A stretch of 64,000 nucleotides of DNA from Fidelibacterota bacterium (GTDB taxonomy: Bacteria > Fidelibacterota > UBA8477 > JABMPR01): NCBI GenBank assembly GCA_016845065.1, contig JAERTG010000082.1, positions 124,001 to 188,000 on the forward strand, in the 5' to 3' direction. Under the pieces are notes generated by a model. It worked only from the letters and a program-made list of their open reading frames with translations. It was not told the DNA's origin and ran no database searches. The position numbers and the translations under genes are program-made. Every line of letters begins with the position of its first letter. Position 1 is the stretch's first letter. Below, piece after piece: positions 58,581 to 63,974 of this stretch.

Positions 58581-58598
58581 CCCATGATTTATCATGGG
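58581..58598. promoter_or_regulatory. 18-bp dyad CCCATGAT-TT-ATCATGGG, candidate operator
   Basis: A perfect 8-bp inverted repeat with a 2-base centre lies directly downstream of the candidate -10 box and over the expected start site. A repressor bound here would block transcription of the receptor gene, so metal-responsive control is plausible. The protein is not encoded next to it in this window. Confidence 0.5.
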
Positions 58599-58640: not shown

Positions 58641-60947
58641 ATGTCATTCTTTAGATCATTATTCATACTATTTGTATGCACCAACCCGATTATTGCCCAG
58701 ACATATGGTGATATTCAGGGAAGTATCGTCCACGATCAGACTGGCGAACCCATCAGTTTTGCCCAGATCGTTCTGATTGAAGCAAACAAGGGTACCGCTG
58801 CAGATGTGGCTGGCATTTTTAATCTGGATGGTGTTGAACCGGGAAATTATACCCTCATGGTTTCACATATAGGATTTCTACCCCATAAAACTGTTATTCA
58901 GATTGCAGCAGATCAGGTTCAAACTCTGGAACTCAAGCTAAAAGAACAGCCCATTCATCTTGATAAGATACTGGTTTCCGCCTCCATTCCCGCAGCAATG
59001 CGATCTGAGATCCATTCACAAGCCTTAGGCGAAAAAGCACCCCGTGATGTCGGCGATTTTTTTAAATCTATCGCAGGAGGTGCAGCTGTCAAGAAAGGCG
59101 GCTACGCCCAAGATCCCAGCTTGCGAGGTTTTCAGCGTGACCAGCTCAATATTCAGTTTGATGGTGGTATAAAAATTTGGGGTGGTTGTCCCAATCGCAT
59201 GGACCCTCCAACCTCACACATACAGGCCGAGGATTTGGATCAGATCGAGGTCATAAAGGGTCCCTTTAGTGTCAGGTGGGGACAAACCTTGGGCGGGATT
59301 ATTAACCTGGTAATGAAACGTCCCACTTTCAATGATGCGTTTACAATCCGGGGAGATGCCAATCTTGGGTATGAGACCAATGGAGATAATCTCAGATATC
59401 GCGTCAGTCTAAACGGTGGTACAAAAAGGTGGGATTTCTATGCCGGCGGTGGCGTGAAGCAGTTTCATGATTATTCCACAGGGGTCGATTCAGTGATCAT
59501 TCCTTCAGCCTATAAGATCAAAGATTATTCAACCAAGCTGGCCTATAATTTTTCAGAAGATAGTCGGATGCAGCTAAATATTCGACAGGCCAGGGTGAGT
59601 GATGTTGATTTTCCAGCCCTCCCCATGGATGCCCGGGAGGATGCCTCAGATATCTATAGCATTGGGTATACTCATAGGAATATCAGCCCTCTCCTCTCAT
59701 CGATTCATACCAAGGTCTATCTCTCAGATGTCAAACATATCATGGACAATTTCAACCGTAGTAATTCTGCCATGGTTGAAGCTGTCACGGATGCAACGAC
59801 AAGAACTGTTGGTGGCAGATTGGAATTTGGACTCCATCCTGTGTTAGGACAAAACCTCTATCTGGGTGTTGATTATTATGATCACAATAAGCAGGGCTAT
59901 CGGGAACGATTTGTTAAAATCAACCCCTGTAATACTTCAATGCATCCAAATATGACCTTCGTTGATTCCGTCTGGCAGAATGCCTCAATTGTTGACATGG
60001 GGTCTTTTGCCGAACTTCAGCATCGCATTACCTCGAGGATTAGCTATAGTCTGGGTATGCGTGTAGACAATGTGACCGCTAGACTTGGTGATCCGGCCAA
60101 AAAATTTATTCAGGCTTATGGCCAGGATAAACGGTGGGAAGAGACAAACTATAGTGGTATGGCTGTTATAAAGTACAGTCCCAATGAAGCGCTGGGAGTG
60201 ACAATGGCTGCAGGTCGTGGAAATCGAAGTGCTGATATCACAGAACGATTCATTAATCACCTGCCAGTAGGCGCTTCACCACATGAACACTTTGGTAATC
60301 CGAATCTTAATGCTGAGATCAATAACCAGTTTGAATTGGGAGTTTCAAGCATTGAGAATGATCATCAAATCCGTGGGAGTATTTTTGTATCTCAATTAGA
60401 GAACTACATCTTTGCCAGGGTTGACTCCAGCATGGATCGTGTCTTTTTACCCTGCAATGAACCAAAGGTATCAAAGGTATTTCAGAACCTGGACAAGGCC
60501 CAGCAACTTGGGTTTGAGATCACTGCTCAGGGTAATATTGTGCCAGGATTAAAATATAATTTAGCCATGGCCTATACACATGGTGTGAACTTGGATACGG
60601 AGACACCCCTTCCTGAAGTGCCCCCTTTCGAGACAGTTCTGAGGATGAGATACACATTACCCAATCTTCCCCTTTGGCTGCAGTCTGAGGCTCGTTTTGT
60701 GAAAAATCAAGACAGGGTGTCAGTTGAATTCGGCGAGAATGAGACAGACGGATTTCAGATATTCAATATCCAATCAGGTTTCAATATAGAGAACAGGATT
60801 TCCTTGCGATTGACCGTAAACAATTTGATGGACACCGCTTATCACGAGCATCTCAGTCGAAATTTTGCAAAGAATACTGCCGAGAGTGGATTACCAATTT
60901 ATGAGCCTGGTCGCAATGTGATTTTGAATGTGAGTTACTCACTTTAA
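58641..60947 (+). CDS. TonB-dependent copper receptor, OprC/NosA-like
   Basis: A 768-residue outer-membrane receptor. A signal peptide (to IIAQ), a carboxypeptidase-regulatory-like domain (~24-100), then plug (~125-228) and barrel. In the plug, GGCPNRMDPPTSH contains C183-x3-M187; in the barrel, KHIMDN contains H366-x-M368. In Pseudomonas OprC these same CxxxM and HxM residues bind copper. The stretch CPNRMDPPTSH is itself typical of the TonB copper-receptor family. Copper import is therefore likely, though not proven for this phylum. It converges with a second such receptor, overlapping it by four bases at the stops. Confidence 0.88.
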   Translation: MSFFRSLFILFVCTNPIIAQTYGDIQGSIVHDQTGEPISFAQIVLIEANKGTAADVAGIFNLDGVEPGNYTLMVSHIGFLPHKTVIQIAADQVQTLELKLKEQPIHLDKILVSASIPAAMRSEIHSQALGEKAPRDVGDFFKSIAGGAAVKKGGYAQDPSLRGFQRDQLNIQFDGGIKIWGGCPNRMDPPTSHIQAEDLDQIEVIKGPFSVRWGQTLGGIINLVMKRPTFNDAFTIRGDANLGYETNGDNLRYRVSLNGGTKRWDFYAGGGVKQFHDYSTGVDSVIIPSAYKIKDYSTKLAYNFSEDSRMQLNIRQARVSDVDFPALPMDAREDASDIYSIGYTHRNISPLLSSIHTKVYLSDVKHIMDNFNRSNSAMVEAVTDATTRTVGGRLEFGLHPVLGQNLYLGVDYYDHNKQGYRERFVKINPCNTSMHPNMTFVDSVWQNASIVDMGSFAELQHRITSRISYSLGMRVDNVTARLGDPAKKFIQAYGQDKRWEETNYSGMAVIKYSPNEALGVTMAAGRGNRSADITERFINHLPVGASPHEHFGNPNLNAEINNQFELGVSSIENDHQIRGSIFVSQLENYIFARVDSSMDRVFLPCNEPKVSKVFQNLDKAQQLGFEITAQGNIVPGLKYNLAMAYTHGVNLDTETPLPEVPPFETVLRMRYTLPNLPLWLQSEARFVKNQDRVSVEFGENETDGFQIFNIQSGFNIENRISLRLTVNNLMDTAYHEHLSRNFAKNTAESGLPIYEPGRNVILNVSYSL

Positions 60948-63184
60948 AAGTCTTCAAAAACTTCCTGGGTGAGAGTGAGGGAAAGAAAACCACTCCTCCC
61001 TGGACGGTAAACATCTCCCCAATCGAGATGTTCGTGGTACAATTGATTGGTCAAATTGGTCATCCCAAGATTCATTTTTAACCCCGGCAAAAGATCAAGC
61101 TCTCCCTTGAGGTCAATGACTAGAAATGCAGATGATGAATTCTCACCACTCACCAGTGAATTATGCGTCTGGGCTGCGGCACCACGCGTGTCTATTTGCA
61201 CCCAAAAACCGCTACGCGCAAAGGTTAATGAGCTATGAACTTCTAAAGGAGGAATATGGGGAAGGAAATCCTGGTAATTGAGTAGCCTACTCTCTTCATA
61301 ATTCATACCTCCCTGGAATATTAAATGAGGAGAAAACCTGTGTAAAATGGACCACTCTATTCCTGAAATCTGTGCCGCTCCACCATCCACATATTTTTTC
61401 CAGCCATTCGCATAGCTGAAGGCATCTTCACTCATTACTTGTCCAAAGATGTAGTGGTTAAATTTGTAATAGTACAAGTTTAGACTCATACGACCGTGAG
61501 AGGTTGTCTGGCTGTTCTGCCACTCAACCTGTTGACTGGTTTCAACCGGCAAGTCGGGATTTCCCAGATACAAATATCCATCAACTGGATTGTATAGATA
61601 ATAGCCATAGGCCTCAGAAACTGTGGGTACACGTTGGCCTGATGCAAAGGACAGTAATGAGTTCCAATTATCTGTCACATTATAGGTGAGATGTGTATTG
61701 GCACTTAGTAAATGGTCAATTCTTTCCAGGTCATTTTCCGGGTAAAAGATACGTAGTGCATCCTGCCCCATCTCGTTGGTTGCTTTGGATTGAAACAAAT
61801 CGTATCTCATGGACAAATTGATATTAAAAGCAGGTCCCAACCGAGACTGATACTCAAGAAACTGACCCATATTCCAGCGTTCTACACCTGGCCAGGTCAC
61901 CATTTCCATGGGTATGGAACCCTCTGGGTACATGACCATGTCTGCGTAGCTGGAATTCCAATAAAAGTCACTTCTCAACTTGAATAGACTTTGGGCACTT
62001 TTCCCCAGGACCAGATCAACATAGGAGCCTGCTGTTCGCGTAAACCCCGGCATATCCATGTGCATATCCATAAAAAGTATTTCGCGTTCACTGTCATCCA
62101 TCCAGTGATCTATGGCATTTCCATAAACCTTCCACTCTGCATTTATTATATGAGAGGTTATTCCGCTGGTTTTGAGGGACAAGCCTGCCATTCTCATTCG
62201 TGCATACCCCACATCCATGGGTAAGGCAGAATAACCTACATCATAGGCGTCATCACTCACTACCTCCAGGAGGAGTTGGCTCTTTTGATTCAGACGTCTC
62301 TTGTAGCCAAAATTCAAATTCATTTTCTCAAACCCGGTAAATGGGATGATCTGCTTATTCGCGGCAGCGTAATTTTGTGCTTTCCTATAAGCACCACTTA
62401 ATGACACCCCACTTCCAGGGGTATTCCTGTTCCAGGTAAACGAGATTTTCTTCTCCTGAGATCCTTGGTCCAAGCCACCTTTTATGTTCCATTCAGTTGA
62501 TTTCTGTGATGCGTATTTTGGTTGATTCATCGTCAAATTCAGAGATCCACCGACGGTAGATCCATTTTGGATAGAAAAGGCACCTTTGCCAATTTCAATC
62601 GAATTGAGGGCATCCGCCTCAACGTAGGAGGTGATTGGATCCATGCGATCAGTACAGGCCCCAAAACTTTTCATGCCATTGATGGTAACATTCATGCGCC
62701 CACCAGACATACCTCGAATGCTCGGTTCTTGTGCGTAACTACCTCGGGCTATTAGACCAACTCCCTCAATCATTGAAATCAGATTCTCAGTAGTAGATAG
62801 ATTGGTTTGTTGAAGGTGTCCCAACATATGCCCTGTGGTCTTTTCCCCCTGGACCGTAATGAAATGTTTGGATTCAATGGTAATCGGTACTAATTCAATT
62901 GTGAGATCATCGAAGTGACCTGATACAACTGAGAGAGAATGGGTAAGTGGCGCATATCCAATCATTGAACAGATAAGGAGTGCACTCCCTTCGGGAAGTA
63001 TGATGGAAAAGCGACCATCCAAATCCGAAGCTGTTCCCAGATTCGAGTCCTGAATCATTATGTTTACACCGATGAGCGGTAGGCCGTTGGATTGATCAAC
63101 GATTTGTCCCTTAACCATCCCGCTCTGGGCGACAAGATTGCCGCCCATGATCAGGATAACGAGAAGTTTAGAAATTGACATCAT
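60944..63184 (-). CDS. Second TonB-dependent copper receptor, OprC/NosA-like
   Basis: Numbered from the ATG at 63184 (746 residues): signal peptide, carboxypeptidase-regulatory-like domain (~20-105), plug and barrel. FGACTDRMDPITSYV gives C177-x3-M181 and IDHWMDD gives H360-x-M362, the same four metal-ligand positions as in the neighbour and OprC. The barrel also carries FMDMHMDMPGF soon after the HxM, a Met/His cluster absent from the other receptor. Overall identity to the neighbour looks low, so they are old paralogues, not a recent duplication. The start overlaps the lipoprotein gene by 17 bases; the TTG at 63232 is rejected. Confidence 0.86.
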   Translation of the reverse strand: MMSISKLLVILIMGGNLVAQSGMVKGQIVDQSNGLPLIGVNIMIQDSNLGTASDLDGRFSIILPEGSALLICSMIGYAPLTHSLSVVSGHFDDLTIELVPITIESKHFITVQGEKTTGHMLGHLQQTNLSTTENLISMIEGVGLIARGSYAQEPSIRGMSGGRMNVTINGMKSFGACTDRMDPITSYVEADALNSIEIGKGAFSIQNGSTVGGSLNLTMNQPKYASQKSTEWNIKGGLDQGSQEKKISFTWNRNTPGSGVSLSGAYRKAQNYAAANKQIIPFTGFEKMNLNFGYKRRLNQKSQLLLEVVSDDAYDVGYSALPMDVGYARMRMAGLSLKTSGITSHIINAEWKVYGNAIDHWMDDSEREILFMDMHMDMPGFTRTAGSYVDLVLGKSAQSLFKLRSDFYWNSSYADMVMYPEGSIPMEMVTWPGVERWNMGQFLEYQSRLGPAFNINLSMRYDLFQSKATNEMGQDALRIFYPENDLERIDHLLSANTHLTYNVTDNWNSLLSFASGQRVPTVSEAYGYYLYNPVDGYLYLGNPDLPVETSQQVEWQNSQTTSHGRMSLNLYYYKFNHYIFGQVMSEDAFSYANGWKKYVDGGAAQISGIEWSILHRFSPHLIFQGGMNYEESRLLNYQDFLPHIPPLEVHSSLTFARSGFWVQIDTRGAAAQTHNSLVSGENSSSAFLVIDLKGELDLLPGLKMNLGMTNLTNQLYHEHLDWGDVYRPGRSGFLSLTLTQEVFEDF

Positions 63185-63974
63185 ACTGAACCGTGCCCAG
63201 CTCCTCACTCCCCCTGGAAAAGGTGAAATCAATAGTCCAATATCCAGTCATACTAAAGGCAACACCCCCCTCATATTTTCCATTTTCAGAGTATACTGGA
63301 TCAACATTTCCTTCTGAACCATGTCCCATATCAGGCATTTGAGGATCAATTGATACGGTTAAATCGGATACTTCTGGGAAACTCATCATGGTTTGCTTTT
63401 TATGAACAGTTAGAATCAGATCATTCAATCCAACTTTTGGGTCTGCTAGCCCATTTAGAGTAACGATATAAATCACCTGGACTGAATCTGCATCCTCAAA
63501 GACCAGGTTTTTCTTCATATTGGTTTCCTCTACAGTCAGGTTTTCAAAAACAATAGTATGGGAACTATTAGCCTCCTGATTCTCAACAAAAACGGTATCG
63601 TCCCAGGTACCCATCATCCCACTAGCCATAATGAAAACGACTTCACTTTCAAACAATCCATCAGAATTGGATGTACTTTCTGGTCCAGCTACTGGACAAG
63701 AGTGTTTCATCGTTTCCATATGCATGATGGGTTTCTGTGTGATTTGAGCATCAGTAACAGGTCCTTCTGATGCATCCGTCAATTCAAAATATAGGTTATT
63801 CAGTCCGACCTTGAGAGCCTCATCAGCATATAGATCGACAGTTAATCCATTATCTACGCCACTACTAATGAGGACCAGATCCTCTGTAGCGTCAGTATCA
63901 TTTTCGCTATCTTCACACCCCAGGATCAAAAATAATGATCCCACCAGCGCGAAAAGCAATATACGCAGCTTCAT
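63168..63974 (-). CDS. Met/His-rich lipoprotein with two YtkA-like repeats, probable copper binder
   Basis: A strong ribosome-binding site (AGGAGGTAAA) precedes the ATG. The signal ends in LILGC (Cys20), a lipobox. Two homologous halves each contain KVGLN(N/D)L followed by a Met/His cluster: P-I-M-H-M-E-T-M-K-H-S-C-P (M84 to C93) and Q-M-P-D-M-G-H-G (M213, M216, H218). This is the layout of YtkA/FixH-like domains. Such clusters bind Cu(I) or Cu(II) in periplasmic copper proteins. The gene overlaps the downstream receptor gene, so both are translated together. Copper binding is inferred. Confidence 0.72.
   Translation of the reverse strand: MKLRILLFALVGSLFLILGCEDSENDTDATEDLVLISSGVDNGLTVDLYADEALKVGLNNLYFELTDASEGPVTDAQITQKPIMHMETMKHSCPVAGPESTSNSDGLFESEVVFIMASGMMGTWDDTVFVENQEANSSHTIVFENLTVEETNMKKNLVFEDADSVQVIYIVTLNGLADPKVGLNDLILTVHKKQTMMSFPEVSDLTVSIDPQMPDMGHGSEGNVDPVYSENGKYEGGVAFSMTGYWTIDFTFSRGSEELGTVQYDVNF

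Follow-up and report, generated by a model that had tools for sequence, protein, structure and literature searches.

OprC-type TonB-dependent receptors and a tandem-YtkA lipoprotein beside a nitrous oxide reductase cluster in Fidelibacterota: a putative NosA-like copper-uptake module

Gene arrangement at the end of the window

The window analyzed here, a stretch of 64,000 nucleotides from a Fidelibacterota bacterium (genome G000, contig C82, positions 124001-188000), ends in three genes that fill its final 5.3 kb. Two of them encode OprC-type TonB-dependent receptors, named R1 and R2, and the third encodes YtkA2, a lipoprotein with two YtkA domains. Genes past the right window end are given in positions of locus L003, where window position = L003 position + 55999. 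The features of the locus were as follows:

58641..60947, + strand: R1, OprC-type TonB-dependent receptor of 768 amino acids, with Pfam and OprC matches and a TIGR01778 score under the cut-off; lineage-specific here
59187..59201, + strand: R1 plug motif CPNRM (C183, M187), aligned on OprC CPNRM
59736..59744, + strand: R1 barrel motif HIM (H366, M368), aligned on OprC HIM
60944..63184, - strand: R2, OprC-type TonB-dependent receptor of 746 amino acids, start set by conservation
62642..62656, - strand: R2 plug motif CTDRM (C177, M181), from the OprC alignment, invariant in 9/9 orthologues
62099..62107, - strand: R2 barrel motif HWM (H360, M362), from the OprC alignment, invariant in 9/9 orthologues
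62051..62071, - strand: R2 methionine run MDMHMDM (M372, 374, 376, 378), at the place of the OprC methionine track
63168..63974, - strand: YtkA2, tandem-YtkA lipoprotein of 268 amino acids with two PF13115 domains, overlapping R2
63168..63184, - strand: YtkA2-R2 overlap of 17 bases, the same in 9/9 genomes, probable translational coupling
58581..58598, no strand: palindrome CCCATGAT-TT-ATCATGGG, 42 bases upstream of R1, candidate operator

R1 and R2 run towards each other, and their 3' ends share 4 bases (60944-60947). The open frame of R2 permits a TTG start at 63232, but conservation favours the ATG at 63184, and an ATG was found at the matching place in 9/9 orthologues, down to 52% protein identity. 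The 17-base overlap of YtkA2 and R2 was kept in all nine genomes, this one included. The same overlap and the same ATG in every orthologue speak for translational coupling, and YtkA2 and R2 are probably coupled in this way, as an earlier note on this DNA had proposed for one receptor and the lipoprotein. Two points are corrected here: R2 has a new start, and the first gene of the set on the R2 strand lies past the window end. It encodes p127, a Cys-containing protein of only 127 amino acids with a CNGKC motif (L003 8032-8415, R2 strand), and a nitrous oxide reductase (nos) cluster lies beyond it.

Receptor family, copper ligands and the lipoprotein

A CarboxypepD_reg-like N-terminal domain, a plug and a barrel were identified by Pfam in both receptors. 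The copper-receptor model TIGR01778 was the best NCBIfam model for R1 and R2, with 275.1 and 124.9 bits, respectively. Among solved structures, the best match of both was Pseudomonas OprC, with HMMER E values of 7.8e-38 for R1 and 4.3e-16 for R2, and a profile of the nine R2 orthologues alone again returned OprC as the best solved structure (E 1.8e-26). The site of OprC is formed by Cys143, Met147, His323 and Met325, and the Cys is reported to be required for Cu(II) binding (PMC8610252). In HMMER alignments with OprC CPNRM and HIM, all four ligands aligned in R1 and R2, so that the plug motif CxxxM and the barrel motif HxM occupy the OprC positions in both receptors. From homology, the four residues are predicted to converge in space. 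All four ligands were present in 11/11 OprC-type receptors of the phylum vs 0/6 next-best receptors, the six being the leftover matches of the 149-genome search for R1 relatives and not a random sample. The four ligands were retained down to 52% identity. Thus, the earlier claim that both receptors carry the OprC ligands held, and the accompanying claim that their barrels differ strongly was also correct, since R1 and R2 are only about 24% identical.

Both receptors scored on haem-receptor models (169 bits for R1 and 108 bits for R2), though below the cut-off of 317, and neither reached the equivalog cut-off of the copper-receptor model, 472.45 bits. These scores would fit another substrate, such as zinc, haem or a metal chelate, with the Cys, Met and His residues inherited or structural. 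We consider this very improbable, because the copper model was the top-scoring model for both receptors, the ZnuD zinc-receptor model gave only 38 bits for R1 and 17.4 bits for R2 against a cut-off of 950, the four ligands persist among divergent orthologues, and the partner lipoprotein belongs to the YtkA family. From family and ligands, we infer with good confidence that copper is the likely substrate.

The receptors differ after the HxM motif. A methionine track in OprC binds Ag(I), which serves as a proxy for Cu(I), and Met339, 341, 343 and 348, shortly after HxM, are described as part of it (PMC8610252). In R2, the run MDMHMDM sits 12-18 residues past the His, and its four Met were invariant in 9/9 orthologues. 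R1 showed a single Met at the same place, followed by VEAVTDATT. Met made up 34/746 residues of R2 and 19/768 residues of R1. This suggests that R2 may handle Cu(I) besides Cu(II), and that R1 may handle mainly Cu(II) or another form. The earlier proposal that two receptors serve different copper forms gained indirect support from the methionine run, which is present in R2 and not in R1.

The N-terminus of YtkA2 has a lipobox-like LILGC, judged by eye without a predictor. Two PF13115 domains were found in the protein, each over the cut-off (56 bits in total, cut-off 25.9), and the two YtkA matches of this genome are both in YtkA2. Most Met, His and Cys residues of its two clusters were invariant in the 9 orthologues, among others Met84, Met86, His91, Cys93 and Met116 in the first half and Met196, Met197, Met213, Met216, His218 and Met242 in the second half. 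This bore out the earlier description of a lipoprotein with two YtkA domains and Met/His clusters. The single match of YtkA2 to solved structures was weak (9ll2, 'Copper resistance protein', E 0.036) and was not used.

Tandem Met/His clusters on a lipid anchor would also suit a cell-surface copper buffer or sensor that is not a chaperone for a client enzyme, and copper transfer by YtkA2 is putative. Such a role is unlikely in our judgement: no signalling domain was found in YtkA2 with Pfam and NCBIfam, and YtkA (CtaK) of Bacillus subtilis has been linked to the assembly of the CuA site in cytochrome c oxidase (PMC13344008). CtaK is described as a lipid-anchored YtkA domain, as in YtkA2 (PMC13344008). 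Unlike the B. subtilis protein as described there, YtkA2 has two domains and a diderm host, and its gene is coupled to a TonB-dependent receptor gene and stands beside nosZ.

For p127, no family over the cut-off was found in Pfam or NCBIfam. Nine genomes have it ahead of a set with an OprC-type receptor. In G083, the place of p127 ahead of the lipoprotein gene is taken by another Cys-rich open reading frame, of 186 amino acids (L097:1677-2237). One plasmid relative of p127 was found, on a Spirosoma plasmid (28.8% identical), two genes ahead of a SCO-family gene, and plasmid relatives of YtkA2 were not found.

The adjoining nos cluster and co-occurrence with nosZ

The nos cluster lies just past the right window end on the R2 strand. 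Outward from the window, the order is p127, a fasciclin lipoprotein-like gene, an Rrf2 regulator, NosY-like, NosF-like, NosD, NosL, a 194-amino-acid protein, NosZ and cytochrome c. NosZ scored 950.8 bits against the Sec-dependent model TIGR04246, over the cut-off of 625, and beside it stand NosD (431.8 bits, cut-off 300) and NosL (PF05573, 43.9 bits, cut-off 24). By these model scores, the nos cluster is Sec-dependent (clade II type). The 194-amino-acid protein between NosZ and NosL (L003:12769-13353) had no Pfam or NCBIfam match, and it was found at the same position in relatives with this cluster type.

The named relative loci L004-L009 are contigs of six Candidatus Neomarinimicrobiota metagenome-assembled genomes (G053, G029, G069, G084, G009 and G041, respectively), each counted once. 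Five genomes (G000, G041, G053, G029 and G091) have p127-YtkA2-R2 on one contig with the nos cluster on one side and ispE on the other. G069 and G084 probably have the same locus, broken inside nosD across two contigs. In G080 and G057, the fasciclin gene is followed by ispE without the module, which is an empty site.

Among 149 genomes, some of them incomplete like others surveyed here, the searches for the R2-type receptor and for the lipoprotein gave an identical set of 9. p127 was found in 9 as well, eight of them R2/lipoprotein genomes and the ninth G093. The R2 search of the 149 genomes gave 10 genomes at E <= 1e-20, and G093 among them was counted as R1-type because its receptor is 40% identical to R1 vs 25% to R2. 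In the receptor search of 245 phylum genomes, 13 genomes were obtained at E <= 1e-30, of which G026, G038 and G046 were excluded for having receptors without the ligands. Candidates were scored up to the best 7 per genome (149 genomes) or the best 4 (245 genomes), and distant OprC-type receptors may escape at these depths.

OprC-type receptors were thus counted in 10/245 genomes and nosZ over the cut-off in 22, and 10/10 carriers were within the 22. Because members of a genus are not independent samples, the count was also made by genus: 3/3 carrier genera were among the 7 nosZ genera of 84, with P = 3.7e-4 as a rough figure. A divergent NosZ, 41-42% identical and over the same family cut-off, was observed in G045, G094, G093 and G009 (L093-L096).

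On this evidence, we lean slightly towards a NosA-like outer-membrane copper-uptake module that serves N2O reductase, beside a nos cluster of clade II type. Ionic copper would be captured at the CxxxM-HxM site of R2, the methionine run in the loop above this site would assist the capture, and TonB would drive the passage of copper through R2. On the periplasmic side, p127 and the lipidated YtkA2 would receive the copper and pass it on. The main recipient would be NosZ, the N2O reductase, and within it possibly the CuA site. NosL is described as serving CuZ (PMC7558416), and the CuZ of NosZ would be served here by NosL with NosDFY. R1 would be a second, lineage-specific receptor that has no such methionine run and may be tuned to Cu(II) or to a different form of copper.

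Transcription was considered next to this arrangement. A long hairpin was predicted after the fasciclin stop (L003:8503-8538, window 64502-64537, outside the window), and hairpins were predicted at this place in 7/7 carriers with a readable interval and in 3/4 non-carriers, despite differing sequences. These were folded from single sequences, as the intergenic and hairpin alignments were too ragged for pair counts. The hairpin has no clear T run and is absent from the list of the terminator consensus scan, so termination there is only putative. If it ends the nos unit, transcription of the copper module probably starts from a separate promoter. A single transcription unit of module and nos genes was unsupported, with a stable predicted hairpin between them, and the module is probably a separate unit. 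Promoter-like matches were no commoner than chance (7 observed vs a mean of 9.8 in shuffles), and an Rfam scan of the 20-kb locus gave one tRNA and nothing else. The perfect palindrome upstream of R1 had 2 further sites in the genome, each with 2 mismatches, and no second exact copy, so that a shared operator was not retained.

Several observations weigh against service to NosZ. The probable separate transcription unit is one of them, and the receptor scores under the copper-receptor cut-off are another. No nos cluster was found next to the module in G009 or G083. G009 has it beside ispE, with no fasciclin gene within about 400 bases before p127, and its divergent NosZ (42%) is on another contig. 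G083, which belongs to another family, has YtkA2-R2 on a 5.4-kb contig without nos genes. Furthermore, no OprC-type receptor was found in 12/22 nosZ genomes. Within the genus of the window, the 8 carriers all fell among the 15/19 genomes that have at least a fragment of nosZ (P = 0.085), a test that includes G088, which has only a contig-end nosZ fragment and is outside the 22. The nosZ link is weak within this genus. This genome also encodes a COX2 protein with CAEYCGLNHAQM (CuA type), a possible second client, and a Sco-like protein is encoded about 3.3 kb from it on the same contig. PCuAC was not found in this genome. With a CuA oxidase present, NosZ is not the sole CuA protein here, and the idea that the CuA clients of this genome are limited to NosZ was rejected. 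Finally, in one study, NosZ is reported to have been unchanged in a P. stutzeri nosA knockout (PMC8610252).

Part of this evidence fits general uptake, in which the receptors would feed all periplasmic copper enzymes and the nos adjacency would be historical or due to shared low-oxygen regulation. The CuA oxidase and Sco-like protein, the hairpin between nos genes and module, and the module apart from the nos cluster in G009 and G083 point this way, and OprC is reported to occur in non-denitrifiers too (PMC8610252). The presence of nosZ in 10/10 carriers argues against it, as does the lack of any COX2 protein besides NosZ in G009 and G093, where the sole COX2/CuA-type match was NosZ itself. 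We regard general uptake as a possible but less probable explanation than service to N2O reductase. That the module mainly serves NosZ has about even odds, because its place and co-occurrence speak for this, and against it stand the probable separate transcription unit, the second possible client and the lack of the module in 12 nosZ genomes. A more specific picture can be held only tentatively, and we would not bet on it: a dedicated outer-membrane-to-NosZ relay of R2, p127 and the two-site YtkA2 in marine N2O consumers for which sulfide makes copper scarce, with an extra receptor for another copper state.

Known copper receptors and the distribution of R1

Like R1 and R2, OprC of Pseudomonas aeruginosa and NosA of Pseudomonas stutzeri are TonB-dependent and have a CxxxM plug and an HxM barrel, and the methionine run after HxM in R2 is a candidate counterpart of the OprC track. 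Unlike OprC and NosA, R1 and R2 score below the cut-off of the family model TIGR01778 and carry the extra N-terminal CarboxypepD_reg-like domain, and the receptor here has a tandem-YtkA lipoprotein and a small Cys protein as partners. NosA has been described as required for N2O reductase (PMC8610252, PMC7558416). How copper for this enzyme crosses the outer membrane is disputed, since nosA mutants of two P. stutzeri strains are reported to have given opposite results (PMC8610252). The conserved receptor-lipoprotein pair beside nosZ in Neomarinimicrobiota, together with the close relatives that have an empty site there (G080 and G057), offers a natural comparison for this question.

The OprC motif outside Proteobacteria is already published: an OprC-type receptor with CxxxM-HxM is described in Bizionia argentinensis (Bacteroidota), and its locus tag is near the CcoG and NosL tags (PMC11213822). 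In the sections of that paper relevant here, no YtkA lipoprotein was seen and no NosZ link is drawn. No publication was found for YtkA and TonB-dependent together, and the search for the exact arrangement went no further than the literature covered here. We place the module with OprC/NosA as a variant that has a new partner, and novelty in print is not claimed for it. Members of the phylum with nosZ, nosL and nosD have been described, and Marinimicrobia nosZ transcripts are reported from low-oxygen to sulfidic waters, including anoxic-sulfidic ones (PMC5688066). The main text of that paper does not use 'TonB' and has 'copper' once, in another sense. It has been proposed that N2O reduction by the phylum is a potential global sink (PMC5688066), and copper supply may limit it in anoxic-sulfidic waters.

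The earlier note had inferred a concerted pathway for the locus with both receptors and the lipoprotein, and had suggested looking for this trio in related genomes. OprC/NosA-type receptors were found as it said, and the lipoprotein and R2 are a conserved pair, present in the same genomes, but R1 does not belong to the conserved set. R1 stands between R2 and ispE in G000 only and was absent there in 7/7 other readable R2 carriers (the R2-ispE interval of G083 was not readable and was left out). R1 was found in no other searched genome of the genus. In the searches of 149 and 245 genomes, its closest relative was the 40% identical receptor of G093, which is preceded by a p127 relative. A recent foreign origin of R1 was considered and has no compositional support, as its G+C content (0.444) and its G+C content at third codon positions (0.426) resemble those of its neighbours. 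Plasmid relatives of R1 were found in 6 records at about 25% identity, and one Thioclava region among them has haem/iron genes.

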